42,504 bases of DNA from a virus. Under the pieces are notes generated by a model. The model did not search any database. It saw only the letters and a list, made by a program, of their open reading frames with translations, and had not been told where the DNA came from. Shown in pieces: positions 12,080 through 41,147 of this stretch. The first letter of the stretch is position 1. Each line of letters opens with the position of its first letter. The DNA lies in IMG/VR virus record IMGVR_UViG_3300043774_001230, positions 1 through 42,504 of that record, one strand, 5' to 3'. A program made the position numbers and the translations under genes.

Positions 12080-12958
12080 TTAGAATATATTGAATTGCAT
12101 TAGGAAGTCCTTACTTACTGTATAGTCGCTGTGGCTTTCAACATCAATATCTGAGTAACTATTAGTTGAGTACATCTTAGTAAAGTGTCTACTCAATTCC
12201 AAGAAGCTATTACTAAATATTCCATGTGTCACAATTGCATATACTTTTGCTGAAGGGTGTGCTTGCTTGATTACCTTTGAGGCTTCAATAAAAGTTCTGC
12301 CTCCATCACAGATGTCGTCAACGATAACGAATGCGTGGTTATCAGAATACTTTTCCAACTCCGGCACAACAGTTTCAGTTATCTTACCAGTCGCAATATC
12401 CCTGTGCTTAGATGCTGTGATCAAGTTGCTAATTTTGAAATGCTCAGCTACCTTGTAAATCTTCTTTAGCGCACCAGCGTCTGGCGATACTATGACGATT
12501 CGATCACGAGCATCATTTCGGTTATCAATATCTGTAAGAGCAAACTTGACTAAGTTGATATTATCTATCAATCGATAGTTTTCTAGGCAGGCTTCCAGCA
12601 CATCCGAATGAGGGTCCATCACAGTAACCGAATGGTACTTTTGAGAATTAACAATAGGACAGATTACTTCCTTCAAGTAGTTTGCTTCCCAATCATTAAA
12701 TCGACGATCTGACCTAGCGCCCAAGAAGTAGGGAACATACAGAGAAATTTTGGAGTAACCTATATTTCTTAAAGCAGCCGTTGCGCAAATAACTAATTCA
12801 AGATCCCTAAATGTTTTGAGTCTACTTACTATCTGAACCTCAACATCCAAGTATCCCCAAGTTGTGTTTAAGGTGATGCTTTGTTGGCCGTCAGGAAACC
12901 TATTGATCTTATACTTAATATCTGATTTTTCAGGATATTCTAAATTTAATTGACTCAT
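12080..12958 (-). CDS. prs: ribose-phosphate pyrophosphokinase
   Basis: 292 residues, close to family length. Visible family features are FPDGQ near the N-terminus, PYFLGARSDR, DPHSD, the VSPDAGALKK segment, KHRD, and the PRPP-binding loop VIVDDICDGGRTF. The enzyme makes PRPP from ribose 5-phosphate and ATP. It is encoded directly after Nampt, 4 bases apart, so the operon supplies both PRPP and the enzyme that uses it. In the published phage NAD+ reconstitution pathway 1 (NARP1) the same pair rebuilds NAD+ from ADP-ribose-derived PRPP and nicotinamide. Phage versions of Prs there act on ADP-ribose; I cannot tell the substrate from sequence alone. Confidence 0.92.
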   Translation of the reverse strand: MSQLNLEYPEKSDIKYKINRFPDGQQSITLNTTWGYLDVEVQIVSRLKTFRDLELVICATAALRNIGYSKISLYVPYFLGARSDRRFNDWEANYLKEVICPIVNSQKYHSVTVMDPHSDVLEACLENYRLIDNINLVKFALTDIDNRNDARDRIVIVSPDAGALKKIYKVAEHFKISNLITASKHRDIATGKITETVVPELEKYSDNHAFVIVDDICDGGRTFIEASKVIKQAHPSAKVYAIVTHGIFSNSFLELSRHFTKMYSTNSYSDIDVESHSDYTVSKDFLMQFNIF

Positions 12959-12962
12959 GTAA

Positions 12963-14483
12963 TTATCTTAATTTTTTTCGGATATCTTCTAATGATGTAA
13001 CGTTATATTGCTGGCCGTCTTTATAGATAAGTTGAAGTACGCCAGTGTCTTCTGTATTCCAAGATACTTTATCGTATAACTTAATTTCACCATCTAACTC
13101 CTCAACACACAACAGACCAGTTGCTGATTTCTTTGTTCCATCATCAGTGATCGGGTCTTTAAAAATCTCACGACCTTCAATTGCAAACACTGGGATTCCT
13201 GATTCTACTTGGTGTTTAACTTCTACGTAAGTGGCTTTCATTGCAAACCCAAATGTATCACGAGTATTGTATTGGTAAGTGAATGAACCGATACCTAACA
13301 CTACGTTTGTTGATGCGAATCCTTTTGCTTCTAAACGTCTGCAAATCTCATCTGCTCTGTCAATTGTGATTGAGTCACCGTAAATAGCTCCAATATGTGA
13401 GTCAAGAACTTTGTATCCTTGTTCGTTTACTGTTCCTCCAAATACATCCCAAAGTAATTCGATAACTCCTTTTTCAGATGGATTTGCTTTACTTAATGTT
13501 CCATCAGCTTTTTCCGTTTCGTATTCTTCTTTATTATCAAAACGAATAGAACCACATAAAATATCTACTGGGTCACCTGAGTCAGGGCGAATAACTAACT
13601 TACCATCACGAGCCATAATTTCTTCTTTCAAAGTAACCACATGTTCGGTACAAACTTTCCAAAGATCCCATGTATCAGATACTACTGAAAGGATTCCTTT
13701 CGGATATGTCTCTAACAATCTGCGGAACGTTTCAACCTCGTCTTCCTTACCGCCTGCGCACATCACCGAATGCTCTGTAGCTGGAACTGAACCTGCAACA
13801 AACTCGCTAGCTCCATAGAACTTTCTAGCACCATGAATAGCTGGTAGAGAATCGGAACCTAGAAAGGAAGTTAGGTGACCTAAGCCTGAACTAACGACTG
13901 CCTCGACTGAGTCCATGCCTCGCATTGAAAAGTCATGCCCTTGCCAATCCACAAACCATGCTCTTTCTTTATCTGTCTTTTCCATCCAACATGTCAATAC
14001 CTTTCTGTACTGATGGGCGATAGTAGCTGACGTCATTGGTTTCCACAGCAAGTTGGAAAGAATTGTTTCAAGATAATTTGTGATCCAATAGAAGTCAGGA
14101 TGTGTGTTGTAAATAGTCAACACTGGAACCTTAATTGGTGCCTTAGTACCTTCCGGCAATGCTTTAACTGCAATTGGAAGATAGCCTAAATCATGCAACG
14201 CCTCAAAGTGGCTAACATCATAATCTGTACCTAGATATGCTGAAAGTTCTCTTTTCATTTCTCCGCAAACCAGATCCTTAGGTCGATCAAAAAAGTCTCT
14301 TTGAAACATTTCGTCCAATTGCATCATAACCATTTGAGGTCCGAATACTACAACTGCATCACATCCCTTAGGAGCGTACTTGTTTGAACGTGGTGTGAAG
14401 TTAGAATACACTAAAGTCGTGCCTTTAGGATACTGTTGGTGATGGCCAGTCTTGTAGCCGTCTGTTAATAGTAGAGGATTCAT
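12963..14483 (-). CDS. nampt: nicotinamide phosphoribosyltransferase
   Basis: 506 residues, matching the roughly 490-residue family. Characteristic segments are DGYKTGHHQQYPKG at the start, HGARKF near 218, SVPATEHSV with the catalytic His at 238, D270, VIRPDSGDP with R299 and D301, and the glycine-rich GIGSFTYQ stretch. The enzyme joins nicotinamide to PRPP to give NMN, the first step of NAD+ salvage. It is first of the tightly packed pair with prs. A likely role is refilling NAD+ after host defence NADases act, or supporting phage metabolism. The active-site residues I can see are intact. Confidence 0.95.
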   Translation of the reverse strand: MNPLLLTDGYKTGHHQQYPKGTTLVYSNFTPRSNKYAPKGCDAVVVFGPQMVMMQLDEMFQRDFFDRPKDLVCGEMKRELSAYLGTDYDVSHFEALHDLGYLPIAVKALPEGTKAPIKVPVLTIYNTHPDFYWITNYLETILSNLLWKPMTSATIAHQYRKVLTCWMEKTDKERAWFVDWQGHDFSMRGMDSVEAVVSSGLGHLTSFLGSDSLPAIHGARKFYGASEFVAGSVPATEHSVMCAGGKEDEVETFRRLLETYPKGILSVVSDTWDLWKVCTEHVVTLKEEIMARDGKLVIRPDSGDPVDILCGSIRFDNKEEYETEKADGTLSKANPSEKGVIELLWDVFGGTVNEQGYKVLDSHIGAIYGDSITIDRADEICRRLEAKGFASTNVVLGIGSFTYQYNTRDTFGFAMKATYVEVKHQVESGIPVFAIEGREIFKDPITDDGTKKSATGLLCVEELDGEIKLYDKVSWNTEDTGVLQLIYKDGQQYNVTSLEDIRKKLR

Positions 14484-14487
14484 CTAG

Positions 14488-14973
14488 TTAAATGGTTTCA
14501 AGTTTAGTTCGTAGAGCACCAATTGCTGCAGTAAGATCAGTAAACACTTGGATGTTTTGTCTAGTGCAGAAAATATCAACGTTTCCTTTTCTCCAGAAAC
14601 CTTCAGGGCAGCACACTATCATTTTATTATGATGACCATATGCTCCCAATTCAAGTAAAGAGATAGGGCTCTTTGTTCCTGGAATAAAGTTCATAAAGAC
14701 AATATCACATGAGTCTAAATGATTCAACTCCCAGTTTACTTGATGATTGAACTGTGGATTAGATTGTGCTTGTTCCCACGAAGAATCCCAAGCATCTCTT
14801 CTAGGATTAAAGAAAGTGACTTCATCTTTCTCATCAAATGAATTGATGACTTTCGTTTGCCAGTCCTCAGCTTCTCCCATTTCAATTGAGCCAGCTAGGA
14901 AAACAGTCGCGTACGATCTAAAATAATCTTCCGATTCTTGTTCTTCTGATTCTGGTGTTATTGTTCTTCTCAT
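14488..14973 (-). CDS. nucleoside 2-deoxyribosyltransferase-like protein
   Basis: 161 residues with the pattern of that family: FLAGSIEMGEAEDWQ near residue 30, NPRRDAWD near 58, QVNWELNHLDSCDIVFMNF and the SLLELGAYG segment that holds the expected catalytic Glu. Family members cleave or exchange the base of (deoxy)nucleosides. It lies 4 bases upstream of nampt, so it belongs to the same operon. That placing suggests a part in nucleotide or NAD-derivative salvage, though the substrate is not shown by the sequence. Confidence 0.8.
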   Translation of the reverse strand: MRRTITPESEEQESEDYFRSYATVFLAGSIEMGEAEDWQTKVINSFDEKDEVTFFNPRRDAWDSSWEQAQSNPQFNHQVNWELNHLDSCDIVFMNFIPGTKSPISLLELGAYGHHNKMIVCCPEGFWRKGNVDIFCTRQNIQVFTDLTAAIGALRTKLETI

Positions 14974-26363: not shown

Positions 26364-28124
26364 ATGCTCAAATCATTTAGTCAATATTTAAAGGAGAAAG
26401 AAAATCCAGATCAACTTATACAAAAATTTGCAACAGCTGTTGCACAAAACAGTAAAGTTAAAGAAACTCCAGCTGGCTCAAATAATTCTCCAGAGATTAA
26501 GAAGATGTTGAGTAACGTTGGTATAAATTCTCCAGCGGCATGGTGTGCAGCTTTTGTTTCATGGATATTTGATTTAGCTTTCTCTGAAAATCCTCCATTC
26601 AAGACAAGTGCATCTGTGTTAAGCATGTGGAAAAATTCACCAGAATCTATGAAGATTAATATAGATTCTGCTAGAAAAAATACATCATTAATTTTACCTG
26701 GGATGATCTTTATTAAAAGCAGAGGAGGCGCTGCTTCTGGAAAGGGACATACTGGTATTGTACTTGGTTTTGAAAACGATCAACTAAAAACGATTGAAGG
26801 AAACACAAACGATGAACTTAGCGGAGAAGGTCATAGAGTTGGTTTGAATATTGAAAGGGGTCGTAAATTATCTGACTCTGAATTACTTGGATTCATTGAT
26901 CCTTTTTTAGAATATAGATCTGAACCTGGATTTAATCAAAAATTAACAGAAACAGTAAATGCAGCTCTTAGAAACGTTGGTGTTTCTTCAAATATTGATG
27001 CACCAGAGTCGACTACGAGTACTCAAATTGATCCAGCAGCCAGCATACAATCCGTAACTGATCCTAAGGTTACTGATACTATACCTGCTGCGACCACTGA
27101 AGAGATTAAATCAAATCCCATAATGAGAAACATGATTATGGGAATAACTAAAATGGCACTAGCTCCAGTAATAGCTCAATTGTCTAAAGCACAGGATGAT
27201 ACGGCTATTGCTCAAGAACTAGATAAATTTTGCAAAGACACTCAAAAAGATCCCAAGCAAGTTGCAAATAGCGTAATCGGATCACTAAAGACGTTAGATA
27301 AAGTAGGATTAGATTCTAATAAGATCGCAGCAGAATTTGGATTAGATCCATTGGTTCTTGAGAAAATAGTAAAATACTTGAATACACTAGTTCCGGATAA
27401 TACTTTAGAAATGAAGTCTGGAACTCCTTCATTTAATGCAATAAATCAATGGAGCCCAAGCTTATCTACTGCAGCTGTTTCAAAAGATTTAACTGACTTC
27501 ATAGAAATAACTAAGCTTGTTATAGCAAAGCTTGAAGGAGGTTATTACCATCCAGATATGTTGAAGGACGGTCGTGTAAAAGATACTCGTTATTCCGGAA
27601 GCGGTGAAACTATGTATGGATTAGATAGATTTGCAGGACATGGTCTATATTACTCTACTCCTAGAAAGGGTAAAGATCCAATCGATGATCTGCAGTATTT
27701 AGATAGCTATGAATACAAGACGCCAGCAGCTAAAGAATTCTGGGAAACTATTGATTCTCAAAACGCTAGATCTACTTGGAAATGGGGAGAAAAGGGACCT
27801 TCTGCAATTCAACCCAGACTATTGGAATTAGCTGCGCAAATAATTAAGCCCGAATATGAAAGGCTTGCTCAAAAATATCTTTCACCAGAAGCATTAGCTC
27901 TAGTAAATTCAGACGGCCGTCTTCTATTTAATTTCATATATGCTACGTGGAACGGAAGTGGATGGTTCCAGAAATTTGCTAATAAACTAAATGATGCAGT
28001 TAAATCTGGAATAAAGGTAACTGACCAGCTTGTTCAAGTTGTGTTAGATGCAAGAGTAAATAGTGGAAATAGCTTAGTTGCACAAGGTGGCAAAAAGATA
28101 GCAAATTTAGTAGGATTCGCATAA
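26364..28124 (+). CDS. capsid-tagged cell-wall hydrolase, CHAP plus lysozyme-like domains
   Basis: 586 residues. Residues 1-12 (MLKSFSQYLKEK) carry the capsid-targeting-like tag FSQYLKE. Residues 55-165 look like a CHAP amidase/peptidase: C61 in AAWCAAF, H129 in GKGHTGIVLG, and EGNTND at 145-150. A linker of about 200 residues, rich in Thr, Ala and helical segments, follows. Residues 385-586 hold a lysozyme-like domain beginning IAKLEGGYYHP with GETMYGLDRFAGHG, recalling GH108-type muramidases. The two activities would cut peptide and glycan of the wall. The tag suggests packaging in the head, so use at entry is as plausible as use at lysis. Confidence 0.72.
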   Translation: MLKSFSQYLKEKENPDQLIQKFATAVAQNSKVKETPAGSNNSPEIKKMLSNVGINSPAAWCAAFVSWIFDLAFSENPPFKTSASVLSMWKNSPESMKINIDSARKNTSLILPGMIFIKSRGGAASGKGHTGIVLGFENDQLKTIEGNTNDELSGEGHRVGLNIERGRKLSDSELLGFIDPFLEYRSEPGFNQKLTETVNAALRNVGVSSNIDAPESTTSTQIDPAASIQSVTDPKVTDTIPAATTEEIKSNPIMRNMIMGITKMALAPVIAQLSKAQDDTAIAQELDKFCKDTQKDPKQVANSVIGSLKTLDKVGLDSNKIAAEFGLDPLVLEKIVKYLNTLVPDNTLEMKSGTPSFNAINQWSPSLSTAAVSKDLTDFIEITKLVIAKLEGGYYHPDMLKDGRVKDTRYSGSGETMYGLDRFAGHGLYYSTPRKGKDPIDDLQYLDSYEYKTPAAKEFWETIDSQNARSTWKWGEKGPSAIQPRLLELAAQIIKPEYERLAQKYLSPEALALVNSDGRLLFNFIYATWNGSGWFQKFANKLNDAVKSGIKVTDQLVQVVLDARVNSGNSLVAQGGKKIANLVGFA

Positions 28125-28151
28125 TACTGCTGATCTTAAATAAATAATATC

Positions 28152-28886
28152 ATGAAATTACATAGCTTTTCAAAATTCATCTCAGAGAAAGTAGAATATC
28201 ACCGTGAACTCTGTCCAAAGGTATGGAATAACATGCAAATGGATGAAGCACTTAGAGAAAAGTTGCTTGCAATTGCAAATGATTTTTGGGAATCATTAAA
28301 GCTAGATATTGAATTATATGATATTCAATTGACCGGTTCCCTAGCAAATTACAATTGGACGAATGCATCTGACTTAGATGTGCACCTTATAATTGATTTT
28401 GGACAAATCAATCAAGATCAGGATCTTGTTAGAAAAGCATTGGACGGTCAGAGGTTTATCTGGAACCAACGCCATGCTCTTCAATTAAGAGGACATGATG
28501 TTGAATGTTATGTTCAACATAAAGACGAACAACACGTAGCGTCGGGTCTATTTTCAATACTTAAGAATCAGTGGATAATTACGCCTACCTGGAAAGAACC
28601 TAAGGTCGACGAGAGGGACGTTACTGAAAAGGTGAGAGTAATTAAATCAGAGATGTCTGAGATCATGGATCGCCTCAAGAAGGCAGATTCAGAAGAAGCT
28701 CAAGAATTATATGACTATATTGGTAGATTTAGAAAAAAGATACAAAACGATCGCAAGGAAGGTCTTGCGAAAGATGGAGAATTTTCAATAGAGAATCTAG
28801 CTTTCAAGGAATTACGACGAGACGGTTCAATAGAGAAGATCATAAACGCTCAGCAGGATGCGTATCGATTAATCTACGAAGAATAA
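28152..28886 (+). CDS. capsid-tagged nucleotidyltransferase
   Basis: 244 residues. Tag: FSKFISE in MKLHSFSKFISEK. Residues 55-140 form a Pol-beta-type nucleotidyltransferase: the GS at 62-63 (QLTGSLANYNW), then DLDVHLI with D74 and D76, and a third acidic strand HDVECYVQ near 118. The C-terminal third is a charged helical bundle. All three catalytic acidic positions appear present. It may modify a host RNA, protein or small molecule after ejection; no target is indicated. TTAAATAAATA lies just before the start. Confidence 0.74.
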   Translation: MKLHSFSKFISEKVEYHRELCPKVWNNMQMDEALREKLLAIANDFWESLKLDIELYDIQLTGSLANYNWTNASDLDVHLIIDFGQINQDQDLVRKALDGQRFIWNQRHALQLRGHDVECYVQHKDEQHVASGLFSILKNQWIITPTWKEPKVDERDVTEKVRVIKSEMSEIMDRLKKADSEEAQELYDYIGRFRKKIQNDRKEGLAKDGEFSIENLAFKELRRDGSIEKIINAQQDAYRLIYEE

Positions 28887-28905
28887 ATAAAAAAAAGAAA
28901 ATAGG

Positions 28906-29826
28906 ATGTACAAATACCTAAATTTTAATAAGATATACGAAGATGCAGCAATTCAACAAACTGCACAAGATCTTGCATTACAAAATGGAGTAAACTTGAA
29001 CTTACAAATATCTGCTCAAAATATTGCTAACTTAAAGAATGAATTCCAAAGTGTCGATGATTCATTAGTAGTGTATGCAATAGATCCTAATCAGTCAGAC
29101 GCTAAGAAACAATCAAAAACAATCAAAGTATACTTTGATGAGGATGTTCCTACTGTTTCAATGAATGCGGAGGCAGTTAGTGATTCATATATTCTTCCTT
29201 TAACCTCCGCTCAAATTGATGAATTAGCTTCTGGAAAACAATTGATCGACTTAATCTTAAGAGCGCCAGATGATCCTTCAAAAGCAGCAGTAGCTGACGT
29301 AAACGGACAATTGACTCCTGTTAAAATTAATGTTGCTCAACAGGGAATTCAAACAACTGCTCAGCCTGAAATGCAAGCTCAACCTTCTGAGCCAATGATG
29401 AATGAACCTAGTGAAATTCCAACAGATGCTGAACTTTTACCGGGAATAGCAACAGAAGGCAAGATAGCAACATTTGATGCTTTCATGGCGGTTCAAGAAG
29501 CTAAGAAAAATAAGCAATGGATTAAAGATATTGATATGAAGAAAGGCGCTCTTAAAAAACAATTAGGAGATGACGATCTTACGTTTGCAGATATTGAAAA
29601 GGCTGAGAAAAAATTAAAGAAAAAGGACAAAGACCCTAAGAAAAAAGGTCTTCAACTTGGAAAAAAGGATTCTACTTTGCATAAGAGATTAACTTTAGCT
29701 AAGAATTTAATGAATGCCAGTGGAGTTAATGAATCAAAATCTGAGCAGATCGCAAAGATTAAGAATGTATTGGTTGAGATCCATAAAGCAGTTGAGGAAG
29801 CTATTAAAAAAACTACTAAAAAATAA
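28906..29826 (+). CDS. capsid-tagged, basic-tailed virion protein
   Basis: 306 residues in three parts. 1-135: a tag-like start (MYKYLNFNKIYED) and a beta/alpha domain. 140-185: a Gln/Pro/Met-rich linker. 186-306: a very basic part that opens with a second tag-like motif, TFDAFMAVQEA, continues with QWIKDIDMKKGALKKQLG and ends in Lys-rich helices. The W-I-x4-K-K-x-G-A-L wording is familiar from small basic phage virion proteins thought to bind DNA. A likely head-internal protein that condenses or accompanies DNA; an internal cut at the second tag would free the basic part. Confidence 0.62.
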   Translation: MYKYLNFNKIYEDAAIQQTAQDLALQNGVNLNLQISAQNIANLKNEFQSVDDSLVVYAIDPNQSDAKKQSKTIKVYFDEDVPTVSMNAEAVSDSYILPLTSAQIDELASGKQLIDLILRAPDDPSKAAVADVNGQLTPVKINVAQQGIQTTAQPEMQAQPSEPMMNEPSEIPTDAELLPGIATEGKIATFDAFMAVQEAKKNKQWIKDIDMKKGALKKQLGDDDLTFADIEKAEKKLKKKDKDPKKKGLQLGKKDSTLHKRLTLAKNLMNASGVNESKSEQIAKIKNVLVEIHKAVEEAIKKTTKK

Positions 29827-30089
29827 TGACCGAATCTACACAAATGTTCTTGTCAAACCTTGATTCGATGGCTAGACACATTGAAGAGCTAAGACGAATC
29901 AACCCGAACCAATTAGACGCTATTTTACAAGAGCATGCATGGGCAGAAGACCATATTGCAACAAGCAAAGATGACTTGCAGGAAGTTACTGAATTTATGC
30001 TTTCATACACTCAAAATACACTAACTCACCATGGAATTAATGGTCGAATTCATACGTATGAAAGTTGGTCACATGACTTGAAAAAATAA
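29826..30089 (+). CDS. small hypothetical protein in the virion cluster
   Basis: 87 residues, helical and acidic (MARHIEELRRINPNQLDAILQEHAWAEDH), with several His residues in the second half. It starts within the stop codon of the gene before (TAATGA). Unlike most neighbours it has no N-terminal aromatic tag. No family recognised. Confidence 0.62.
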   Translation: MTESTQMFLSNLDSMARHIEELRRINPNQLDAILQEHAWAEDHIATSKDDLQEVTEFMLSYTQNTLTHHGINGRIHTYESWSHDLKK

Positions 30090-30099
30090 TAAGTAGAAG

Positions 30100-30354
30100 A
30101 TGAAATTGCACAATTTCAATAGTTTCGTTAATGAAGCTAAAAAGAACAAAAAGAATTACTTGGATGAATTTTTCGCCGATGAAGAAACTCAAGTAAAGAT
30201 GCCAAAAAAGAAACCTGCTAAAAAAGCAACTAAGAAAATTGACCAGGATGGAGATGGAGATTCAGATTTCGCTGATGCTAAAATGGCTCAATACAAAGCA
30301 GGTGGAATGGATAAGAAAAAAGCCTTTAAAAAGTCTAGAAAGTTTAACAAATAA
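30100..30354 (+). CDS. capsid-tagged small basic protein with EF-hand-like loop
   Basis: 84 residues. Tag FNSFVNE in MKLHNFNSFVNEAKK. A Lys-rich segment (KMPKKKPAKKATKK, about 34-47) resembles a DNA-binding tail. Then DQDGDGDSDFADAK matches a calcium-binding D-x-D-G-D-x-D loop. The end is again Lys/Phe-rich. A head-internal DNA-binding protein is the simplest reading; calcium binding is a suggestion from the motif only. Confidence 0.65.
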   Translation: MKLHNFNSFVNEAKKNKKNYLDEFFADEETQVKMPKKKPAKKATKKIDQDGDGDSDFADAKMAQYKAGGMDKKKAFKKSRKFNK

Positions 30355-30368
30355 CCCGCATAAGAGAG

Positions 30369-30509
30369 ATGGCCAAAACTAAAACACAAACAACTAGTGC
30401 ATTCAAGAGTAAACCCAAGAAGAAGAGACCTGGGATTCATGCTAAGACTAAACAGTCAAGCAATAAGAATGCTAAGTTGTACAAGAAACCTTACGCAGGT
30501 CAAGGTTAA
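30369..30509 (+). CDS. tiny highly basic protein
   Basis: 46 residues with 15 Lys and 1 Arg: MAKTKTQTTSAFKSKPKKK, then RPGIHAKTKQSSNKNAKLYKK, ending PYAGQG. It has no tag, no membrane helix and very few hydrophobic residues. The wording K-R-P-G-I-H-A-K-T-K followed by a K/S/N-rich stretch and a Y-K-K-x-Y tail is reminiscent of small basic proteins in other large phages. Located 14 bases after the EF-hand-like gene. Probably binds nucleic acid. Confidence 0.65.
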   Translation: MAKTKTQTTSAFKSKPKKKRPGIHAKTKQSSNKNAKLYKKPYAGQG

Positions 30510-30512
30510 TCA

Positions 30513-30815
30513 CTAAGAGTTTGCTAGTTTTAGCAAAACGTCTCCATGACATGACTTAGGATGACACCAACAACCTAATGTTTTTCCTCTTAACTCGTGA
30601 AGGTCAGCTAATAAATGCTGACCTTCTCCTTTTAAGATATATTCCTCGTACTTTGCAACAGCTTCATCCCTATTGCTCACAATGTATTTTGCGGCAGTCC
30701 TACGGTCATCGATATGAGTGAAAGGATTTCCCCATTTAGAAGGACGTCCTATATACACATCACATGGTTCTTTTTTAAAGTGAACTACTCGTGGTGTATT
30801 AGATTCCATCTGCAT
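30513..30815 (-). CDS. DUF4326 family protein
   Basis: 100 residues (98 if the second ATG is used). The family pattern is clear: VYIGRPSKWGNPF near 20, a central helix (RDEAVAKYEEYIL), then LRGKTLGCWCHPKSCHGDVLL with Cys and His residues that could bind a metal. The function of the family is unknown, though it is widespread in phages. The start overlaps the end of the 30799 gene. It converges with the tiny basic gene, 3 bases between stops. Confidence 0.82.
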   Translation of the reverse strand: MQMESNTPRVVHFKKEPCDVYIGRPSKWGNPFTHIDDRRTAAKYIVSNRDEAVAKYEEYILKGEGQHLLADLHELRGKTLGCWCHPKSCHGDVLLKLANS

Positions 30816-31119
30816 TTGGGAAGTTTTTCTGAAATGAAATGGTGTACGCCATTGCTGGTGAAAGTGAAGGATCGTTTCTCATCTCAATCAACGAATCATG
30901 GATAACTTTACTTATGTTCTCCTTAGGTAATTCACGATTAACTCGGTTGATCCATGAGGTTTCACAACTTTCATCCTCAGTAAAATCATAAAGATCTGCC
31001 ATCTGTGAGGCTTCCTCCTCAGTCAATCTGTGAATGTTTGATACCCAGCCCGGTTCTCCATTTGAATCGAACCATGCAAGTCTCTTTGGCAACTCTACGG
31101 TCACTGTTTCGCTCGTCAT
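30799..31119 (-). CDS. hypothetical protein
   Basis: 106 residues, acidic in the first two thirds (LTEEEASQMADLYDFTEDESCE), with a helical second half. No metal, membrane or catalytic motif is seen. It overlaps the DUF4326 gene by 17 bases and reads away from the tagged gene at 31195; the divergent gap between them holds a perfect inverted repeat. No family recognised. Confidence 0.62.
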   Translation of the reverse strand: MTSETVTVELPKRLAWFDSNGEPGWVSNIHRLTEEEASQMADLYDFTEDESCETSWINRVNRELPKENISKVIHDSLIEMRNDPSLSPAMAYTISFQKNFPNADGI

Positions 31120-31152
31120 ATTTTATTCTATTTGTTTTTACTAATATACAAT

Positions 31153-31172
31153 TTTTAAGAGCTCTCTTAAAA
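31153..31172. promoter_or_regulatory. perfect inverted repeat in a divergent gap
   Basis: TTTTAAGAG-CT-CTCTTAAAA: a 9-base inverted repeat with a 2-base centre, in the 75-base gap between the genes at 31119 (-) and 31195 (+). The right arm runs into AATAAATAAA, a late-type element. The symmetry suits a dimeric regulator; as RNA it would form a weak hairpin. Confidence 0.35.
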
Positions 31173-31194
31173 TAAATAAAAAGAAAGAACGACT

Positions 31195-31656
31195 ATGTCT
31201 GCTTTTGCGAGTTTTAATTCATTTTTGAAGGAAAGTAGTAAATACATTCCTACACAGCCTAAGGAAGGGTCAAGACAAAGGATTAGAGTTCCTAAAGATT
31301 CTACTGATGTTCCAACTATTACTTTTAGAGTACTTCATAAAATTTATCAATCTGGGTATGAAGGGATAAGATATACAGATATTGTAAAGTTTATAGTGGA
31401 AGACGTTAAGGGAGGGAAATATCAACATAAATTCGATCGAGGCCATTGGGCTACTAACTTAACGCAAGCTAAATATGGATGGTACGGAGGCGAATACCGA
31501 GGAGGTATACTAACGAACTATTGCACTAAGACTGATCAGGGACGTTGGATTCTAACTAACAAGGAATTGATAGCTTACTTTAATTCTCTAGATTCAGGTG
31601 ATATTATGGATCCTGAATTAATGGACACGTTCATAAACATAATAAATCACTTATAA
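31195..31656 (+). CDS. capsid-tagged protein with winged-helix-like body
   Basis: 153 residues. Tag FNSFLKE in MSAFASFNSFLKESS. The body from about 40 (ITFRVLHKIYQSGYEGIRYTDIVKFIVED) has the helix-helix-strand order of a winged-helix domain. It then has an aromatic, Gly-rich part (YGWYGGEYRGGILTNY) and a helical end. DNA binding is plausible but not certain. The start follows AATAAATAAAAAG. Probably a head-internal protein. Confidence 0.65.
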   Translation: MSAFASFNSFLKESSKYIPTQPKEGSRQRIRVPKDSTDVPTITFRVLHKIYQSGYEGIRYTDIVKFIVEDVKGGKYQHKFDRGHWATNLTQAKYGWYGGEYRGGILTNYCTKTDQGRWILTNKELIAYFNSLDSGDIMDPELMDTFINIINHL

Positions 31657-31669
31657 AATAACAAATAAC

Positions 31670-32218
31670 ATGGCAGGAAGAGTTTTAAACTTTGCTGAAT
31701 TCTCATCGAAATTTTCGAAGGATTCTGAACAAAATACCGCTGCAAGCTTTGATACATTCTCGCATAGTGCAGATAATTTCAAAGAAGGTTTCGATAAGGA
31801 AACATATGGTTCGCCTGAACCAAAACCAAATCGCCCTATCTCAACTAGCGATGAGCCTACTCCTCCTCAACCTGGAGAAAACGGAGCCCCTAAATTCAAT
31901 TCATCAGCTGCTGATTCAACTAAACTAGAGAAACCAGAATCTTCTGAGTCTTCTGAAGAAGATGAGACACCTGAACCAGAAATGGGAGCAAATCCTAAGA
32001 AAAAAACAAATGAGTCTTTAGAATGGTTGCTGGAGAGGTATGATGATTGCGACGATTGTATGGATGATTCTATACTACTTGATAAAGAATATGCGGACGC
32101 TGGTCCGATTGTAATTTGTTCAAGTTGCGGAACTCAAAAAGCAATGGATGCAGAAGTTCCTGAAGAGGATCCATGGTATTCTCAAGAATTTGGCATGCAG
32201 TGTGGCTGCAACATGTAA
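31670..32218 (+). CDS. capsid-tagged acidic protein with Cys-rich C-terminus
   Basis: 182 residues. The start (MAGRVLNFAEFSSKF) has the aromatic spacing of the tag but lacks the Glu. Residues 35-115 are low-complexity, rich in Pro, Glu and Ser. The end contains CDDCMDD, CSSCGTQ and QCGCNM: six cysteines in pairs, which suggests zinc binding. The acidic middle could be a scaffold or decoy for DNA-binding proteins. No family recognised. Confidence 0.6.
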   Translation: MAGRVLNFAEFSSKFSKDSEQNTAASFDTFSHSADNFKEGFDKETYGSPEPKPNRPISTSDEPTPPQPGENGAPKFNSSAADSTKLEKPESSESSEEDETPEPEMGANPKKKTNESLEWLLERYDDCDDCMDDSILLDKEYADAGPIVICSSCGTQKAMDAEVPEEDPWYSQEFGMQCGCNM

Positions 32219-32228
32219 TCCTTAAATA

Positions 32229-32849
32229 ATGCAGATAACTAAGGAAATGATGGAGATTGGTATTGCTTTTATTACTGGTGTTTTAGGACCAGTTCTCATT
32301 CTATTTGTAAAGTCTTACTTGGAAAAGAATAATAAGAAAGTAGACTTGTTAACTGAAGCTGTTGAGCATTCAGATGTTGTAAATTCAATGTTAGATGGAA
32401 TACTTGCAGATAAGAGCGTCGATCGTGCATGGATACTTCAATTTCATAACGGAGGACACTATTATCCTACTGGAAAATCAATACAAAAATTTAGCATGTT
32501 CTTTGAAGTAGTTAGACATGCAAAAGATTCAGTTAGATTGCAATACCAAAATATACCAGTTAATCTTTTTAGTAAATCTCTATCGCAAATAGTAAAAACA
32601 GGAGAAGTAATAATTCCAGACTATCGAGATGAGGAAACTGCAACATATGGCTTGAAATATATTGCTGAAGAAAATGGAACTAGAAGTTCTTACCTCTTTG
32701 CTATAAAAAACCCAGAAGGTAGAATAATTGGGGTTTTAGGAATTGAATATACTGGTCGTAAGAAAGAACTTGAACATGCAACTATTCAAGAACTAAAATT
32801 TAGTGCAGCAACATTGGGTGGAGTATTGATGAATCACCTAAAAAAATAA
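32229..32849 (+). CDS. membrane-anchored GAF-like protein
   Basis: 206 residues. One hydrophobic helix (about 11-30: IAFITGVLGPVLILFVKSYL) is followed by a charged helix and a domain with the look of a GAF sensor fold (AWILQFHNGGHYYPTG, SYLFAIKNPEGRIIGVLGIEYTG). GAF domains bind small ligands such as nucleotides. It has no capsid tag although it sits among tagged genes. TTAAATA directly precedes its ATG. The ligand and role are unknown. Confidence 0.6.
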   Translation: MQITKEMMEIGIAFITGVLGPVLILFVKSYLEKNNKKVDLLTEAVEHSDVVNSMLDGILADKSVDRAWILQFHNGGHYYPTGKSIQKFSMFFEVVRHAKDSVRLQYQNIPVNLFSKSLSQIVKTGEVIIPDYRDEETATYGLKYIAEENGTRSSYLFAIKNPEGRIIGVLGIEYTGRKKELEHATIQELKFSAATLGGVLMNHLKK

Positions 32850-32854
32850 GAGAT

Positions 32855-33463
32855 ATGAAAAATCACATACATACTTTTAATTCTTTTTCATCAAAATTAG
32901 ATGAGAATAGAAAGCATACTTCAAAAAGACAAGAACTTGAGGAAAGAATTCTTGATCTAAAAGATGAGATGAGAGAAGTATTTGCTGAGATGGAAGCTGA
33001 AGCTGGAATGGCTGGTGAAAACTGGACAGATGACGATGCTAATAGATATGGTGATGAATTAAACAGAATTGAAGACGAAATTGCTAAAATCCGTATGCGT
33101 ATTAATAAAATGGATGAAAGCTATCTTGATTTTCAACAAGCTGCTAGTGTAGCTCAAGATACAGAAGGCGCCCAAAGATATGAATACGGATCTAATCCAA
33201 ATCAAATGGAAATGGAGTTTCCAAAAGATCGTAGATTTGAGGAAGAACCAGAAGAAGATTTCGAAGACCCTGAAGTTTTTAGAAAACATATGGAAAGCCC
33301 TACTCGAAAGCTTGATTCTATTATGACAATGGCAGAGATTATGAAAGGTTTAGTCTCTAAACGAGGAAAGAATAACAAACAACATCCGTATGTTTTAGCT
33401 AATTTGGAAGATGCGTACATGTCGTTGAGGACGGCTTACTTGAGAAGTCAAGACGGATTTTAA
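32855..33463 (+). CDS. capsid-tagged coiled-coil acidic protein
   Basis: 202 residues. Start MKNHIHTFNSFSSKLDE, with aromatic pair F8/F11 and Glu at 17. Residues 20-90 form a long charged helix, probably coiled coil (RQELEERILDLKDEMREVFAEME...), and 120-150 are Glu-rich (EEEPEEDFEDPEVF). The last 50 residues are helical and more basic. The composition resembles scaffold or core proteins of T4-like heads, but no homology is claimed. Confidence 0.62.
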   Translation: MKNHIHTFNSFSSKLDENRKHTSKRQELEERILDLKDEMREVFAEMEAEAGMAGENWTDDDANRYGDELNRIEDEIAKIRMRINKMDESYLDFQQAASVAQDTEGAQRYEYGSNPNQMEMEFPKDRRFEEEPEEDFEDPEVFRKHMESPTRKLDSIMTMAEIMKGLVSKRGKNNKQHPYVLANLEDAYMSLRTAYLRSQDGF

Positions 33464-33636
33464 TCTTCCCAATTAAGAAGTACATCACCTAAATCGTCGG
33501 CTACCATTATTAACATTTGAAAATACTCAGGAGAGTCTATTCCTTTTTCAGAAATTATTGAGTTCTGTATGGCTTCTAGCTTTTGAAGTATCTCCTTCTT
33601 AAGTTCTTTTTTTAATAACTCTTGTTCTTTTGTCAT
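33460..33636 (-). CDS. small acidic helical protein
   Basis: 58 residues (MTKEQELLKKELKKEILQK...), one long charged helix and an acidic end (MVADDLGDVLLNWED). It overlaps tail-to-tail with the + strand gene by 4 bases. GTATAAG stands 5 bases before its ATG, the same arrangement as at other leaderless-type starts, which makes this short frame credible. An isolated minus-strand gene inside a + strand block. No family recognised. Confidence 0.6.
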   Translation of the reverse strand: MTKEQELLKKELKKEILQKLEAIQNSIISEKGIDSPEYFQMLIMVADDLGDVLLNWED

Positions 33637-33641
33637 GTTAT

Positions 33642-33648
33642 CTTATAC
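33642..33648 (-). promoter_or_regulatory. GTATAAG promoter-like motif
   Basis: Minus strand: TAAGTATAAG, ATAAC, ATG. One base differs from the GTATAAT consensus of the window; the spacing of five bases predicts a leaderless mRNA. Confidence 0.45.
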
Positions 33649-33700
33649 TTAGATAATTGGATTTCGATCTCGAATAAATAATAAAAAAGATCTGTAAAAG

Positions 33701-34066
33701 ATGAAGAATTATAAGAAATTGAATCGCATGTATGAATCAGTAGAAATGCCAGAACTTTCTCAAGAAATTGCAAATTGTGGACTTTCTGAATTTATGACAA
33801 AGCTCGAAGCATGTTGTGCAAACGACGCAAGTTTATCTGATAAATTAGATTCATTAAAGACATTAGTTTCAGATATTTGTGCGCAACCTGCAGTGATGAC
33901 TGCATTTAGCCCAGAAGCTGAGCCTGTGATGGAGCCTACAATGGAACCTACAATGGAGCCAACTTCTCAAGCTGAACCTACTTTATCTGAGCCAGTTCCA
34001 ACATTTGGAGAATTTACTCAAGGTTCACCTAATCAAGAATATAACGTACCGACATTTGGAGCATAA
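33701..34066 (+). CDS. capsid-tagged-like small acidic protein with Pro-Met-Glu repeats
   Basis: 121 residues. Start MKNYKKLNRMYESVE, a weak tag variant (L7, Y11, E12). A helical cysteine-containing part (25-65) is followed by repeats of EPTMEPTM type (about 73-85), encoded by a 12-base DNA repeat, and two PTFG(E/A) motifs. The end is Pro-rich. It overlaps the next start by 1 base (TAATG). Possibly a spacer or bridging protein in the head; no family recognised. Confidence 0.55.
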   Translation: MKNYKKLNRMYESVEMPELSQEIANCGLSEFMTKLEACCANDASLSDKLDSLKTLVSDICAQPAVMTAFSPEAEPVMEPTMEPTMEPTSQAEPTLSEPVPTFGEFTQGSPNQEYNVPTFGA

Positions 34067-34314
34067 TGACTAAGAACTTTTCTCAATATCTAGTCGAGTA
34101 TTACTCTTTGCCTCAGCCAGATGACTATAGACCAAATAAAGTCACAATGTACGCTAGAGGGTCAGGTCAACCGCCATCTCATTGGAATAATTCACCATTC
34201 TTGGCAGGTTCGCCAGCAGTTAGCGCATTTGGAAGAAATCCAAAGGCTACTAAAAAAAAGAAAGCATTAAGCTATAAGGAATTTATGAATGCTTTAAAAA
34301 AAATAAACAAGTAA
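34066..34314 (+). CDS. capsid-tagged small basic protein
   Basis: 82 residues. Tag FSQYLVE in MTKNFSQYLVEYY. The middle is Pro/Gly/Asn-rich and flexible; the end has KATKKKKALSYKEFMNALKK, basic, and YKEFMNA recalls the tag motif near the C-terminus. It overlaps its neighbours by 1 base at each end (TAATG), so it is translationally coupled. Probably a head-internal protein. Confidence 0.58.
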   Translation: MTKNFSQYLVEYYSLPQPDDYRPNKVTMYARGSGQPPSHWNNSPFLAGSPAVSAFGRNPKATKKKKALSYKEFMNALKKINK

Positions 34315-34583
34315 TGGCATACTTAAATGACTATGATACTTTTAAAAATTTGAAAGTTAGCGAACAGGCGACCGGAGAAGGGGATATTGCAGGCTTGAAA
34401 CAGAAGATGGAAACTGCTTTGACTACCAAGAACAATGCTCAAAATGCATTAACATTAGCGGATAAAGCATATCAAGAAGCTCAAAGGCAATATAATGACG
34501 CATTAGCAGCTAGCGTAAATGCACAGAATCAAAAAGCAGCAGCTGAAGCAGAGGCCGCTAAAAACATACAACCGACTGCATAA
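34314..34583 (+). CDS. capsid-tagged-like coiled-coil protein
   Basis: 89 residues. Start MAYLNDYDTFKNLKVSEQA: aromatic pair Y7/F10 and Glu at 17. From 25 to 85 it is one Ala/Gln-rich helix (MTT-free heptads such as LTLADKAYQEAQRQYNDALAA), a likely coiled coil. Overlaps both neighbours by 1 base. It looks like a small core or scaffold-type protein; no family recognised. Confidence 0.55.
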   Translation: MAYLNDYDTFKNLKVSEQATGEGDIAGLKQKMETALTTKNNAQNALTLADKAYQEAQRQYNDALAASVNAQNQKAAAEAEAAKNIQPTA

Positions 34584-35026
34584 TGAAAGATCATTTAGAT
34601 TCATTTGATGATTTTATCTTTGAAAAGAAGAATCAAGTGTATGTCACCAACTATACTGGAATGGCACAATCGGCTATTGCTGGCATTTATACTTCAGTTC
34701 TTGCAATAGCTCAGCAAATAGCTAATGAGAAGGCAGTTAGAAATCCAAATAGACATAACGGAAAAATAGAGGAAGTAGATATTACAAGAGCAATGAATTT
34801 AATATTTCATAGCGATTGGAAGAAGAAGATGAAGCAACAGTTAGTCGGCCAAATGATGAACAATGCTGCTGAACGTGCCGGTAAACAAGATAAAGTATCA
34901 GCTAAGAAGAATCAAAGAGCAATGGGAAGAAATTTAGGAGATGAAAAATTCAATGTAGACATCGATAAATCCAGCGTTAGATTTAGTGATGATCGAACTG
35001 GATTTGGACCAGGATCAAATCAATAA
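34583..35026 (+). CDS. capsid-tagged protein with helical body
   Basis: 147 residues. Tag FDDFIFE in MKDHLDSFDDFIFEKK. The body is helical: an Ala-rich helix (MAQSAIAGIYTSVLAIAQQIA), then a basic region (WKKKMKQQLVGQMMNNAAERAGKQ). It ends Asp/Arg-rich with RFSDDRTGFGPGSNQ. It is the last tagged gene of the block. Likely head-internal; no family recognised. Confidence 0.6.
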   Translation: MKDHLDSFDDFIFEKKNQVYVTNYTGMAQSAIAGIYTSVLAIAQQIANEKAVRNPNRHNGKIEEVDITRAMNLIFHSDWKKKMKQQLVGQMMNNAAERAGKQDKVSAKKNQRAMGRNLGDEKFNVDIDKSSVRFSDDRTGFGPGSNQ

Positions 35027-35031
35027 TTAAC

Positions 35032-35766
35032 ATGACTGAAAGAGAACTATTAGAAGATATTAATAATGAGATCACCTTTTCCGGAATGATTCCATATTCT
35101 TTGCCCGACAAAGAATTAAAGAGGATTCTGGAAAATGATACTAAATATTTTTATGATAACTGGAGGCACGCAGTAGAACCACAGTACATACTATTGCCTA
35201 CTGCTCTTTTTGGTGATCCTGCTTTTAAAGCAAATCGTCAGATTACTCTTCCGGACTGTGTGCAAGCAGTTATTGAGTTTAAGGAAACTCGAGGAAATTC
35301 AATATTAGGAACAATTGACCGAGATTTCGGAGAGCAAAAGTTTATAGGATCAGAAGTTTACTTGACTCCATTCATTGGCGAATCTATAATGTATCGTACA
35401 ACAATCTTTTCTTTTCTTGACCTAACTAAAGCATTTGTTTTGGACACAGTCTCATATGACTTTAATAAGAACAGCAAGAAGTTGACAGTTGTCGGTAGAT
35501 CTCCAAAAGTAGATGCAGTTATTAAAGTTTTAAAAAAATTAGATAAAGAATATTTGTACAAGGACGAACTTTTCCAAAGATATGTTCGTGCGCATTCTAA
35601 GGTTAGACTTGCACAAATGCTACAAACATTTAACTATACTCTTCCTGGAGAAATAACTTTAAACTATCAAACAATTACTCAGGCAGCTACTGCTGAAATG
35701 ACTGAAGTAACTACTATGATGGCTAAAGAGAACACTCCAGATTGGTTGTTCTTAACTAGACAATAA
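35032..35766 (+). CDS. virion structural protein, possibly neck or head-tail connector
   Basis: 244 residues, mixed alpha/beta, without tag, signal or catalytic motif. The opening (LLEDINNEITFSGMIPYSLPDKELKRILENDTKYFYDNW) recalls the helical start of neck or adaptor proteins. It lies 5 bases before the gp25-like gene and 5 after the tagged block, between head and baseplate functions. Assignment is by position and general look only; a baseplate protein is also possible. Confidence 0.5.
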   Translation: MTERELLEDINNEITFSGMIPYSLPDKELKRILENDTKYFYDNWRHAVEPQYILLPTALFGDPAFKANRQITLPDCVQAVIEFKETRGNSILGTIDRDFGEQKFIGSEVYLTPFIGESIMYRTTIFSFLDLTKAFVLDTVSYDFNKNSKKLTVVGRSPKVDAVIKVLKKLDKEYLYKDELFQRYVRAHSKVRLAQMLQTFNYTLPGEITLNYQTITQAATAEMTEVTTMMAKENTPDWLFLTRQ

Positions 35767-35771
35767 TTACT

Positions 35772-36149
35772 ATGGCAAACGTTAGAGATTTCTATATGCG
35801 TCCTGAAGAGGATCCTAGATACATACCAGATCAGATCGAGGTGTATGATCCATTGGAAGCAATTCTTACTCAAGTTAAAATGACTCTATTAACTTCTAAG
35901 GGAGACGTTTTAGGAGAACCTAATTTTGGATTGAATATCGAAGGTAGATTGTTTGAATACCAGATCGATATTGAACAGTTTACTGAAGAGGCAAATAATC
36001 AGATAACTGCGTTTGTTCCTGAAAGTTCAAATAGAAGAATAACAGCTTCTTCTCAAGTATTTGAGTTAGGACAGTCACATAGAATTGGAGCTATGTTGAA
36101 CATCAATATTGATGGATCGACTAGCGCTTTCTCAGTTCTATACGATTAA
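35772..36149 (+). CDS. gp25-like baseplate wedge protein
   Basis: 125 residues, family length about 130. Family features are the leading DPLEAILTQVKMTLLTSKGDVLGEPNFGLNIE, with the L-x-T-x-x-G-D-x-L-x-x-P-x-F-G pattern, and a helix with FTEEANNQITAFVPES. The protein belongs to the inner wedge that joins sheath and baseplate in contractile tails, so the phage should be a myovirus. It is the last gene of the + strand virion block; its final 4 bases overlap the oxygenase gene. Confidence 0.85.
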   Translation: MANVRDFYMRPEEDPRYIPDQIEVYDPLEAILTQVKMTLLTSKGDVLGEPNFGLNIEGRLFEYQIDIEQFTEEANNQITAFVPESSNRRITASSQVFELGQSHRIGAMLNINIDGSTSAFSVLYD

Positions 36150-38258: not shown

Positions 38259-39962
38259 TTATAGAGCGCCAGTACCTTTGGTCTCTCCGCCCTCGATTGT
38301 TTCAGAGCCGGCTGCTGCTTCTGGTGCGGCTGGGGCTGGGGCAGCTCCTCCTCCAGCTGGAGGAGCGGGTGCTTCGCCGCCTTCGCCAGCAACAGGTTCG
38401 TCTTTTGCTGATTCCAGCCATCGATTATTTGAATCAATTTCGTCTTGAGTCAATCGCAATTCAGTTCGAATCAAGTATTCTGTCGAGAAATAAGGAGTTC
38501 CGTCATCTTTCATTATTCCTTTCTTAGCAGTAAATGAAGCGATACGTTTTGCATCTAAATCATTCTTCTTCATCTCCTCAAACACGTTATCGTCGTTGTA
38601 CATGATTCCCATTGCAGTATTGAACTTATGATCTTCTGCCAATTCAGGATAAGTAAGACACATCTGTAGATACCATGGTTTTACAAGTAATTCAGAAAAA
38701 GCCGAACGTAGTCTTCTAATAAATTTTTGGTATCTGATTTCTTCCCTTGTAATACCTTCAGCGTTTAATGTGAATGCTCCCATTCCAGATTGACCTTCCC
38801 ATCTTGAGTAAGGAATCTTTGAATCCATCTTCAATTTCTTATAGAAATAATTTAGGAGCTCTGATCCAGACAAGTTTGGTCCAGGCATTTGTAAAGGCTC
38901 AATCTTAACTGATTGATTCTGATCATTTACTGGAGTCACATAATTCTTATAGAACAATATATTTGGTTTACCGTCAACTTGAACTTCACCAGTGTCTCCA
39001 TTAAATTGAACGTCTTCTTTCAATAAGTTCATGAATTCTTTTACGTCCTCTTGCGCCTTTTGGAAACTCTTAGATCCGATAGGCACGCTTGTTTGCAAAC
39101 GTATTGGAGCATTCATTACGTGCCAAATCACCTTACTATGTTCAATGACTCTAAGCAAATTGAATGATCTTATCAAACGTTCAACGAATGAAACGCGCTT
39201 TGTTTTAAAGTGGTTCGAATACGATATGTAGATTACTTGAGAATCAGTCAACGTCCTAGTTGAACCAGTAGTTGGGTCATATTGATTCCAAACAAGATAT
39301 AATTTACCCTTAGCGTCCTTTGTTAATTGAGGAGCTAAGCTCGCTGGATCAAGCTCCTTAAACCCGATAATCTCAGTAGGCTTTTCCAAATTATCGTAAA
39401 TGATTTCAAAGGAAAGATGACCTTCTATCAAAAATTGAAAAGCGTATTGCCATGCAGATATTCCCTCAGTAAATCCCCAAGTTGAATATATTTTGTTGAA
39501 AGTATCTGAATAATTCTTGGTTACTGATTCTTGGAAATTTAAGCGCTGTTGTTTATTCGATCCTCTATATAAGATCTTTCCAGTAATATCGTTCGGATAA
39601 CAGAATCTATTATCTTCTCCATAAACGATCATATCATCTGTGATAGTGTCTAATACAAATTCTATTTCTCCATTTGCTGCAACATCTCGTAATCTCTCTC
39701 TTTTAGTAGTATACTCCAATTGAAAGAATGCAATTGCCTTGCTTCTAAGATTAGAAGTAGTATCTGAAAGAGCCATTGAATATCTTAAAAGATCGTCGCC
39801 AGCTCCATTTCGACCAAGTCGAGATTGCATTTGACCCTCAACGAAACCTATCGCCTGAGAGTTTCTAAGAAGAAGATCTTCATACCTGTTCCCGAATTTG
39901 CTGAGCGCTGAGAACTTTGAACCTCCTCTTCCTAAGCCATTTGTATCTAAAAAACCAGCCAT
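38259..39962 (-). CDS. portal vertex protein, gp20-like
   Basis: 567 residues, similar to the T4 gp20 length of 524. The order of features fits: an N-terminal region, the core with YGEDNRFCYPND and WQYAFQFLIEGHLSFEIIYDN, then the conserved stretch IPYSRWEGQSGMGAFTLN with YQKFIRRLRSAFSELLVKPW. The last 40 residues are an Ala/Pro/Gly-rich tail not seen in T4. Twelve copies should form the ring for DNA packaging and head-tail joining. It is the last gene of the operon primase - 41157 - gp4 - 39962 - portal; the start overlaps the previous stop by one base (TAATG). Confidence 0.87.
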   Translation of the reverse strand: MAGFLDTNGLGRGGSKFSALSKFGNRYEDLLLRNSQAIGFVEGQMQSRLGRNGAGDDLLRYSMALSDTTSNLRSKAIAFFQLEYTTKRERLRDVAANGEIEFVLDTITDDMIVYGEDNRFCYPNDITGKILYRGSNKQQRLNFQESVTKNYSDTFNKIYSTWGFTEGISAWQYAFQFLIEGHLSFEIIYDNLEKPTEIIGFKELDPASLAPQLTKDAKGKLYLVWNQYDPTTGSTRTLTDSQVIYISYSNHFKTKRVSFVERLIRSFNLLRVIEHSKVIWHVMNAPIRLQTSVPIGSKSFQKAQEDVKEFMNLLKEDVQFNGDTGEVQVDGKPNILFYKNYVTPVNDQNQSVKIEPLQMPGPNLSGSELLNYFYKKLKMDSKIPYSRWEGQSGMGAFTLNAEGITREEIRYQKFIRRLRSAFSELLVKPWYLQMCLTYPELAEDHKFNTAMGIMYNDDNVFEEMKKNDLDAKRIASFTAKKGIMKDDGTPYFSTEYLIRTELRLTQDEIDSNNRWLESAKDEPVAGEGGEAPAPPAGGGAAPAPAAPEAAAGSETIEGGETKGTGAL

Positions 39963-40643: not shown

Positions 40644-41147
40644 TTACGCCTTGTTAAACAGAAAGTTTTCAGTAATTATCCCGAACTCCATGTTATTCTT
40701 ACGAGCGTACACCTTTGCTGCTTTGAATTTAGCATCATTGATGATATATGCTTTTGCATGACGCACATAGTTTAATGTCTGTTTCTCAGTAAGTCTCTTC
40801 GGAGACTCGGGAGGATTTAGATATTTGTTTGGCTTGATCTCAATCAGCCACTTCTTTATCGATCCATCGAGCTGCCTGGTTGCCATATAGCAGTCTACCC
40901 AATAAGTACTTTCCTTTTTTAGAATAGGGTTCCAGTATGGGATCCCAGTAGGTTCAGATGCGTATTCAACAACTAGTTCGTTTTGATCACAATAATCTAA
41001 AAACTTAAATTCCCAACTAGATCTGTAAATTACTTTGGTCGGATCACCCTTGTATTTTTGAGGATTTTTAGGCACAAAGTATCCCTGACGAACTCTGCCG
41101 TTTTGGGGTTTTAGAAAGTCATGAATATCTCTTTCTTTCTTTGCCAT
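40644..41147 (-). CDS. gp4-like head completion protein (nuclease fold)
   Basis: 167 residues, near the T4 gp4 length of about 150. It matches the T4 gp4 wording in several places: VPKNPQKYKGDPTKVIYRSSWEFKFLDY, GIPYWNP, YWVDCYM, KWLIEIKPNKY and PPESPKRLT. The D...E-x-K core is that of a PD-(D/E)xK nuclease. Gp4 completes the filled head and protects the DNA end before tail joining. It lies between the unknown 39962 gene and the small acidic gene. Confidence 0.87.
   Translation of the reverse strand: MAKKERDIHDFLKPQNGRVRQGYFVPKNPQKYKGDPTKVIYRSSWEFKFLDYCDQNELVVEYASEPTGIPYWNPILKKESTYWVDCYMATRQLDGSIKKWLIEIKPNKYLNPPESPKRLTEKQTLNYVRHAKAYIINDAKFKAAKVYARKNNMEFGIITENFLFNKA

Follow-up and report, generated by a model that had tools for sequence, protein, structure and literature searches.

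Internal head proteins of phage T4 are brought into the prohead by a short N-terminal capsid-targeting sequence (CTS). In internal protein III (IPIII), experiments have shown that targeting depends on CTS positions 4 and 7, and processing on positions 8 and 10; the head protease gp21 cuts after [L/I]-x-E, and gp22 and gp67 are also processed by the head protease (PMC9026906). The T4 internal proteins are ejected with the DNA (PMC9026906; PMC12373910), and all three proved to be counter-defence factors (PMC12373910). In giant phages of the SPN3US/phiKZ type, a protease related to gp21 cleaves head proteins after Glu, and many of these proteins are ejected; the SPN3US propeptides are mostly long, four of them exceeding 100 residues, and a gp22-type scaffold was not confirmed there (PMC5694885). 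The CTS principle and variable repertoires of internal proteins are not new for T-even phages. Here we describe a set of tagged genes at positions 26364-35026 of the viral contig IMGVR_UViG_3300043774_001230, which was analysed over its full 42,504 bases (the window). With a probability of about 0.83, these genes encode T4-type internal head proteins that are loaded by the tag, cut after its Glu and probably ejected.

The tag was scored in residues 2-22 with the strict pattern [FYW]xx[FYW][ILVM]xE. It occurs in six of the 67 open reading frames (ORFs) of the window, where 0.09 were expected by chance from internal segments and 0.17 (maximum 2) from shuffled N-termini, an excess with a Poisson P of about 3e-8. 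An earlier sequence-only reading had reported these six motifs (FSQYLKE, FSKFISE, FNSFVNE, FNSFLKE, FSQYLVE and FDDFIFE), and each was confirmed. It had also proposed a motif scan of all ORFs, which places the six strict tags among the 16 ORFs of the interval and none among the remaining 51 (Fisher P 8e-5). A second form, [FYW]xx[FYWLIM]x[KR]hxE (h, hydrophobic), was defined after inspecting the window and its homologues. It is present in the genes starting at 28906 and 33701 (2 observed, 0.0 expected), is enriched in three related contigs too, and brings the count to eight in the interval and zero outside (P 2e-6). The related phages show the same excess of strict-tagged proteins, with 9 observed against 1.5 expected in G001, 9 against 1.1 in G002, 7 against 1.0 in G008 and 22 against 2.7 in the 462-kb relative LR756500 (shuffled N-termini: mean 2.5, maximum 8). 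That the tags reflect chance, or a composition bias of AT-rich N-termini, is hardly credible: although the motif constrains four positions only, and single cases in large genomes such as T4 gp61.4 are at chance level, the shuffled N-termini stay far below the observed numbers in both the window and LR756500, and the tag is conserved in homologues. For the six strict genes, shuffling and conservation refute a chance origin.

The four constrained positions correspond to positions 4, 7, 8 and 10 of the T4 IPIII CTS. The six strict and the two second-form proteins all have aromatics at positions 4 and 7 of the CTS and hydrophobic-x-Glu where the leader ends, and the leader precedes unrelated bodies whose family matches differ or are lacking. 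As in T4 IPI, IPII and IPIII, a leader of 10-19 N-terminal residues (aromatics at 4 and 7, a hydrophobic residue at 8 and Glu at 10) is the only part common to these bodies, and it goes together with a T4-type portal, capsid protein and protease. Unlike the T4 internal proteins, tagged proteins are more numerous per genome (the 22 of LR756500), include enzymatic and leucine-rich-repeat (LRR) bodies, and use a second tag form. The window bodies have no PHROG or Pfam match to internal-protein families; pairwise comparison with IPI-III was not made. A scan of the T4 proteome for the strict tag returned IPII, IPIII and gp61.1, plus the chance-level gp61.4. Among the T4 head proteins gp21, gp22, gp23, gp24, gp67, gp68 and Alt, the strict motif occurs only in gp23, at FGSFLTE|AEIGG, which is the known cleavage site of the T4 capsid protein. 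The T4 gene 61.1 (NC_000866, 18966-19130, minus strand; locus L147), annotated as hypothetical, encodes a protein with the N-terminus MKTFKEFIKED; this matches the CTS in full, and the protein is a possible additional internal protein of T4.

Conservation within families points to the same positions. The last tagged gene of the set (34583..35026, plus strand as for all tagged genes; 147 aa, helical) bears FDDFIFE at 34604..34624 and belongs to a family of 58 loci, overlapping ones included. In 28 members, Glu14 and the aromatics at positions 8 and 11 are each kept in 28/28 while the positions between them vary, and the family consensus, K-[TS]-Y-x-[DQE]-[FY]-[IV]-N-E followed mostly by S/A/T, is close to the T4 sequence KTYQEFIAE|A. 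In the family of the gene at 31195..31656 (153 aa, without a family match and by eye resembling a winged helix; tag FNSFLKE at 31213..31233), the second aromatic F10 and the Glu E13 of the tag are among only 17 invariant columns of an eight-sequence alignment; one homologue (L020) starts MERSVLTYQEFIAES. These patterns also bear on the idea that the motif is an address that is not cut, used elsewhere in assembly or at the membrane (prohead initiation at the membrane, the tail, a host partner). Such a role would suit a short amphipathic helix-like peptide, as the tag is, but the final Glu is invariant among variable neighbours, mostly small residues (S/A/T/G) follow it, as they do at the cut sites of T4, and the motif recurs both at the cut site in T4 itself and in the scaffold array described below. 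We regard an uncut address as improbable.

The remaining tagged genes carry varied bodies. The first (26364..28124, 586 aa; tag FSQYLKE at 26376..26396) encodes a putative wall hydrolase with a CHAP amidase/endopeptidase-type domain at residues 57-150. It matches the endolysin family phrog_9589 (1.1e-10), and its CHAP match (2.3e-5) is just below the cut-off. Its C-terminal region bears an ExGGYY motif and is a possible muramidase, and searches of PDB and phage proteins gave no match for the C-terminal half. T7 gp16 is an ejected peptidoglycan hydrolase carried inside the head. We know of no homology between it and the window hydrolase; the assembly system is different, and here the location in the head is suggested by the tag alone. 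The second gene (28152..28886, 244 aa; tag FSKFISE at 28167..28187) encodes a polymerase-beta-like nucleotidyltransferase (GS...SDLDV; phrog_36119, 9.5e-37), and the tag Fxx[WF][ILV]xE is kept in 14/14 related loci when translation is taken to begin at a non-ATG codon, apparently TTG. The third (28906..29826, 306 aa) has the second-form tag YLNFNKIYE at 28915..28941 (FDFKKIFE, FNFAKIFE and IDYKKIFE in homologues) and two modules, with an internal tag-like site, FDAFMAVQE, at their junction (29473..29499). The fourth (30100..30354, 84 aa; tag FNSFVNE at 30115..30135) is Lys-rich with DxDGDGDSD, and in relatives its body is fused to a homologue of the gene at 29826. Further downstream, the gene at 33701..34066 (121 aa) carries the second-form tag YKKLNRMYE at 33710..33736, and a homologue search for it found none. 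The gene at 34066..34314 (82 aa; tag FSQYLVE at 34078..34098) has 49 related loci; in some the strict tag is present, and in others the protein has a short N-terminus of the MKRL[VF]EG type.

The sequence-only reading had proposed eleven tagged genes, five of them with looser versions of the motif. The present analysis counts eight, because 28906 and 33701 fit the recurrent second form while 31670, 32855 and 34314 are unproven. The gene at 31670..32218 (plus strand), with a zinc-ribbon-like C-terminus, has a conserved FxxF N-terminus, RVLNFxEFxxKYS, that is strongly conserved in about 30 homologues; no hydrophobic-x-Glu site was found in this N-terminus or in those of its homologues. The genes at 32855..33463 and 34314..34583 (both plus strand) have the doubtful tags FNSFSSKLDE and YDTFKNLKVSE in a spaced FxxF...hxE arrangement like that of T4 IPI, which starts MKTFKEFTSTTTPVSTITEA and indicates that spaced forms can be real in T4. 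This arrangement is only weakly enriched (4 against 1.4 expected); the 32855 sequence is not conserved in homologues, and a homologue search for 34314 found none. These three genes were rejected as tagged, and for them a chance origin is possible. Two other genes inside the interval, at 29826 and 32229, are untagged. A DUF4326 gene and its neighbour (30513-30815 and 30799-31119, minus strand), also untagged, lie on the opposite strand within the tagged cluster.

Arrangements in relatives suggest that the tag moves with the N-terminus as a module. In LR756501 another domain precedes the nucleotidyltransferase in a fusion protein whose N-terminus is MLKYNSFIKEEF. In a second relative (L002), the downstream module of the 28906 protein is a separate gene starting MSVIKNFSQFLNEAKK, which falls exactly at FDAFMAVQEAKK of the fused protein of the window. 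Homologues of the wall hydrolase have swapped forms, the window gene having the first and those of G001 and G008 the second. Because of this fusion, split and swap, the tag is considered modular. Other tagged bodies in relatives include Nudix (PF00293), PG_binding_1, LRR and DUF2201 metallopeptidase/VWA proteins, and most are without a match. Two proteins of 655 and 514 aa in the G002 contig (68205 and 70866; locus L120) have near-identical starts, LLNYKNWRALYES and LLNYNKWRALYES, with a loose match to the second form.

A gp21-like protease, which the sequence-only reading had suggested searching for, was found outside the window: 12 of 16 long related contigs carry both Peptidase_S77 and a Gp23-type capsid protein, and in G001 the two genes lie about 40 kb from the portal gene, farther away than this fragment extends. 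The protease is similar to T4 gp21 (PF03420, 1e-10; PDB 5JBL, 4e-6), and the catalytic His and Ser are conserved, H82 and S137/S138 falling at the HPP and SSR motifs of gp21 in the alignment. The capsid protein has a putative hxE cut site, TPWLAE|YAHNH, which is conserved in nine distinct N-termini. Past the protease part, the same ORF encodes a scaffold. Its 14-residue units, for example YSEYIAENLDKNIA (YSEYIAE-type), are repeated in tandem 9-14 times in six of the seven phages analysed (G001, G002, G008, LR756501, LR756502 and LR756504); the scaffold of LR756500 has four recognisable degenerate units only, and Lak has the protease-scaffold fusion without the array. Over 70 units, position 1 is Y/F/H, position 4 is Y/H, position 5 is almost always L/I/V and position 7 is E in 68. 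This differs from T4, in which the scaffold gp22 has 16 [LI]xE sites and no strict motif. Processing of head proteins after Glu, here deduced from sequence, would be shared with phiKZ and SPN3US; unlike SPN3US, this lineage has tags of 10-14 residues and an evident scaffold.

In the proposed mechanism, the N-terminal peptide [F/Y]xx[F/Y/W]hxE would bring each protein into the scaffold core within the prohead, a gp21-type protease would cut after the tag Glu so that the tag leaves, and the freed body would stay with the DNA and probably be ejected into the host. There, some bodies may serve in early takeover, in counter-defence or in crossing the envelope. Since the middle of the scaffold is a tandem array of the motif with 14-residue spacing, the cargo tag looks like a single scaffold repeat that has been detached, and it may enter the core by this resemblance. 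We tentatively propose, as a possibility short of an even chance, that the CTS works by scaffold mimicry, with the single unit [FY]xx[YH][LIV]AE of the cargo slotting into the array and being cut by the same protease.

Several observations weigh against the proposal that the tagged genes encode internal head proteins. No Peptidase_S77 was found in the 42.5-kb window, a fragment from which protease and scaffold are both absent, and for this lineage the search turned up neither virion proteomics nor N-terminal mapping. The nucleotidyltransferase homologues of Lak, cyanophage S-H34 and Maribacter phage Molly have no clear tag, and S-H34 and Molly nevertheless encode S77 proteases; tagging is, on these grounds, taken to be a choice of the lineage. 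Scaffold units favour Tyr-Tyr while tags favour Phe, so that the resemblance between them concerns four determinants and not full identity. The same preference accounts for the partial success of a matrix trained on scaffold units, which recovers only some of the tags. A model of the protease-scaffold fusion, in which the array forms one long helix, had low confidence (pLDDT 42) and was not used. As for the sequence-only reading, its idea of T4-type tags on unrelated bodies is upheld by the match to CTS positions, by purifying selection on the tag, and by the protease, capsid protein and scaffold repeats of relatives; it went too far in including the three unproven genes, and neither the two untagged genes at 29826 and 32229 nor the window without a protease agrees with it.

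It is also conceivable, though unlikely, that the tagged proteins are scaffold-core or structural head parts, like T4 gp67/gp68 or minor capsid proteins, which are processed and not delivered. T4 gp22 and gp67 undergo such processing (PMC9026906), and the highly conserved 34583 family occurs beside the Ad2 adaptor gene in most portal loci, as expected of an assembly factor. However, enzymes (nucleotidyltransferase, CHAP hydrolase, Nudix, DUF2201) and LRR bodies fit delivered cargo better, as does a repertoire that differs strongly among relatives. The internal-protein reading is preferred for the set as a whole, and the 34583 and 34066 families may have a head-assembly role instead of being cargo. 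An AlphaFold model of the 34583 protein (pLDDT 67) shows two long helices, one of them C-terminal, and a short one. Histone folds make up most of its weak PDB matches, every one of which has E above 1.8, and a loop of its relatives, GTIEEVDITRAM, resembles archaeal histone KTIKAEDIELAV. Profile searches with this protein found nothing, and for this reason the histone fold was kept merely as a lead.

The genes surrounding the set indicate the kind of phage concerned. Late-gene context directly downstream is given by a head-tail adaptor Ad2-like gene (35032..35766, plus strand; phrog_211) and a gp25-like baseplate wedge gene (35772..36149, plus strand; phrog_43), followed on the minus strand by a gp20-type portal (38259..39962; phrog_213, 2e-58) and a gp4-type head-closure protein (40644..41147; phrog_218). 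Because these four genes are present, the window is assigned to a partial genome of a T4-type myovirus. The closest portal is that of a 462-kb uncultured phage (40% identity), followed by those of other phages of 540-735 kb, including Prevotella Lak phages, and of Tenacibaculum and Chryseobacterium phages; these relatives point to what is probably a large phage of a Bacteroidota host. A subtilase gene (3858-6095, plus strand) has an apparent signal peptide and a C-terminus like a type IX secretion signal, both judged by eye, and suggests a secreted protease and a Bacteroidota host. Three different proteins (6384-8117, 8134-8724 and 9435-11489, plus strand) have M[SP]FINWGxETPEQKE as a common N-terminus, with a GSG-rich linker after it; this is a second shared N-terminal module, distinct from the head-type tag. 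A phosphoribosyl-pyrophosphate-synthetase-like gene adjoins a nicotinamide-phosphoribosyltransferase-like gene (12080-14483, minus strand), a pair resembling the NAD-salvage (NARP-type) operons of phages. In the related G008 contig, a gene for a topoisomerase-II-like subunit is in three ORFs (12131-14906; locus L127), apparently split by an inserted intein or homing-type element.

Judged by titles and abstracts, the papers in the open literature searched that use the phrase capsid targeting sequence deal with T4 and T4-based platforms, P1, P22 and SPN3US, and none of them with this lineage; the search yielded no account of the tag set or of the scaffold array for it. What is new is the extension of the CTS to far-diverged huge T4-type phages, with enzyme-rich repertoires, a second tag form and a protease-scaffold fusion that contains a tag-like array. 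The array offers a testable answer to the question of how a CTS of ten residues recognises the core, and the tag offers a route, from sequence alone, to listing the proteins, mostly unannotated, that uncultured phages of jumbo and huge size probably deliver into the cell. If the CTS does work by scaffold mimicry, huge T4-type phages would possess a loading system that is open and programmable, each virion containing 10-20 or more cargo proteins, among them wall hydrolases and RNA- or nucleotide-modifying enzymes. Taken together, the findings suggest that phages of this lineage carry a kit of proteins into the host along with their DNA.

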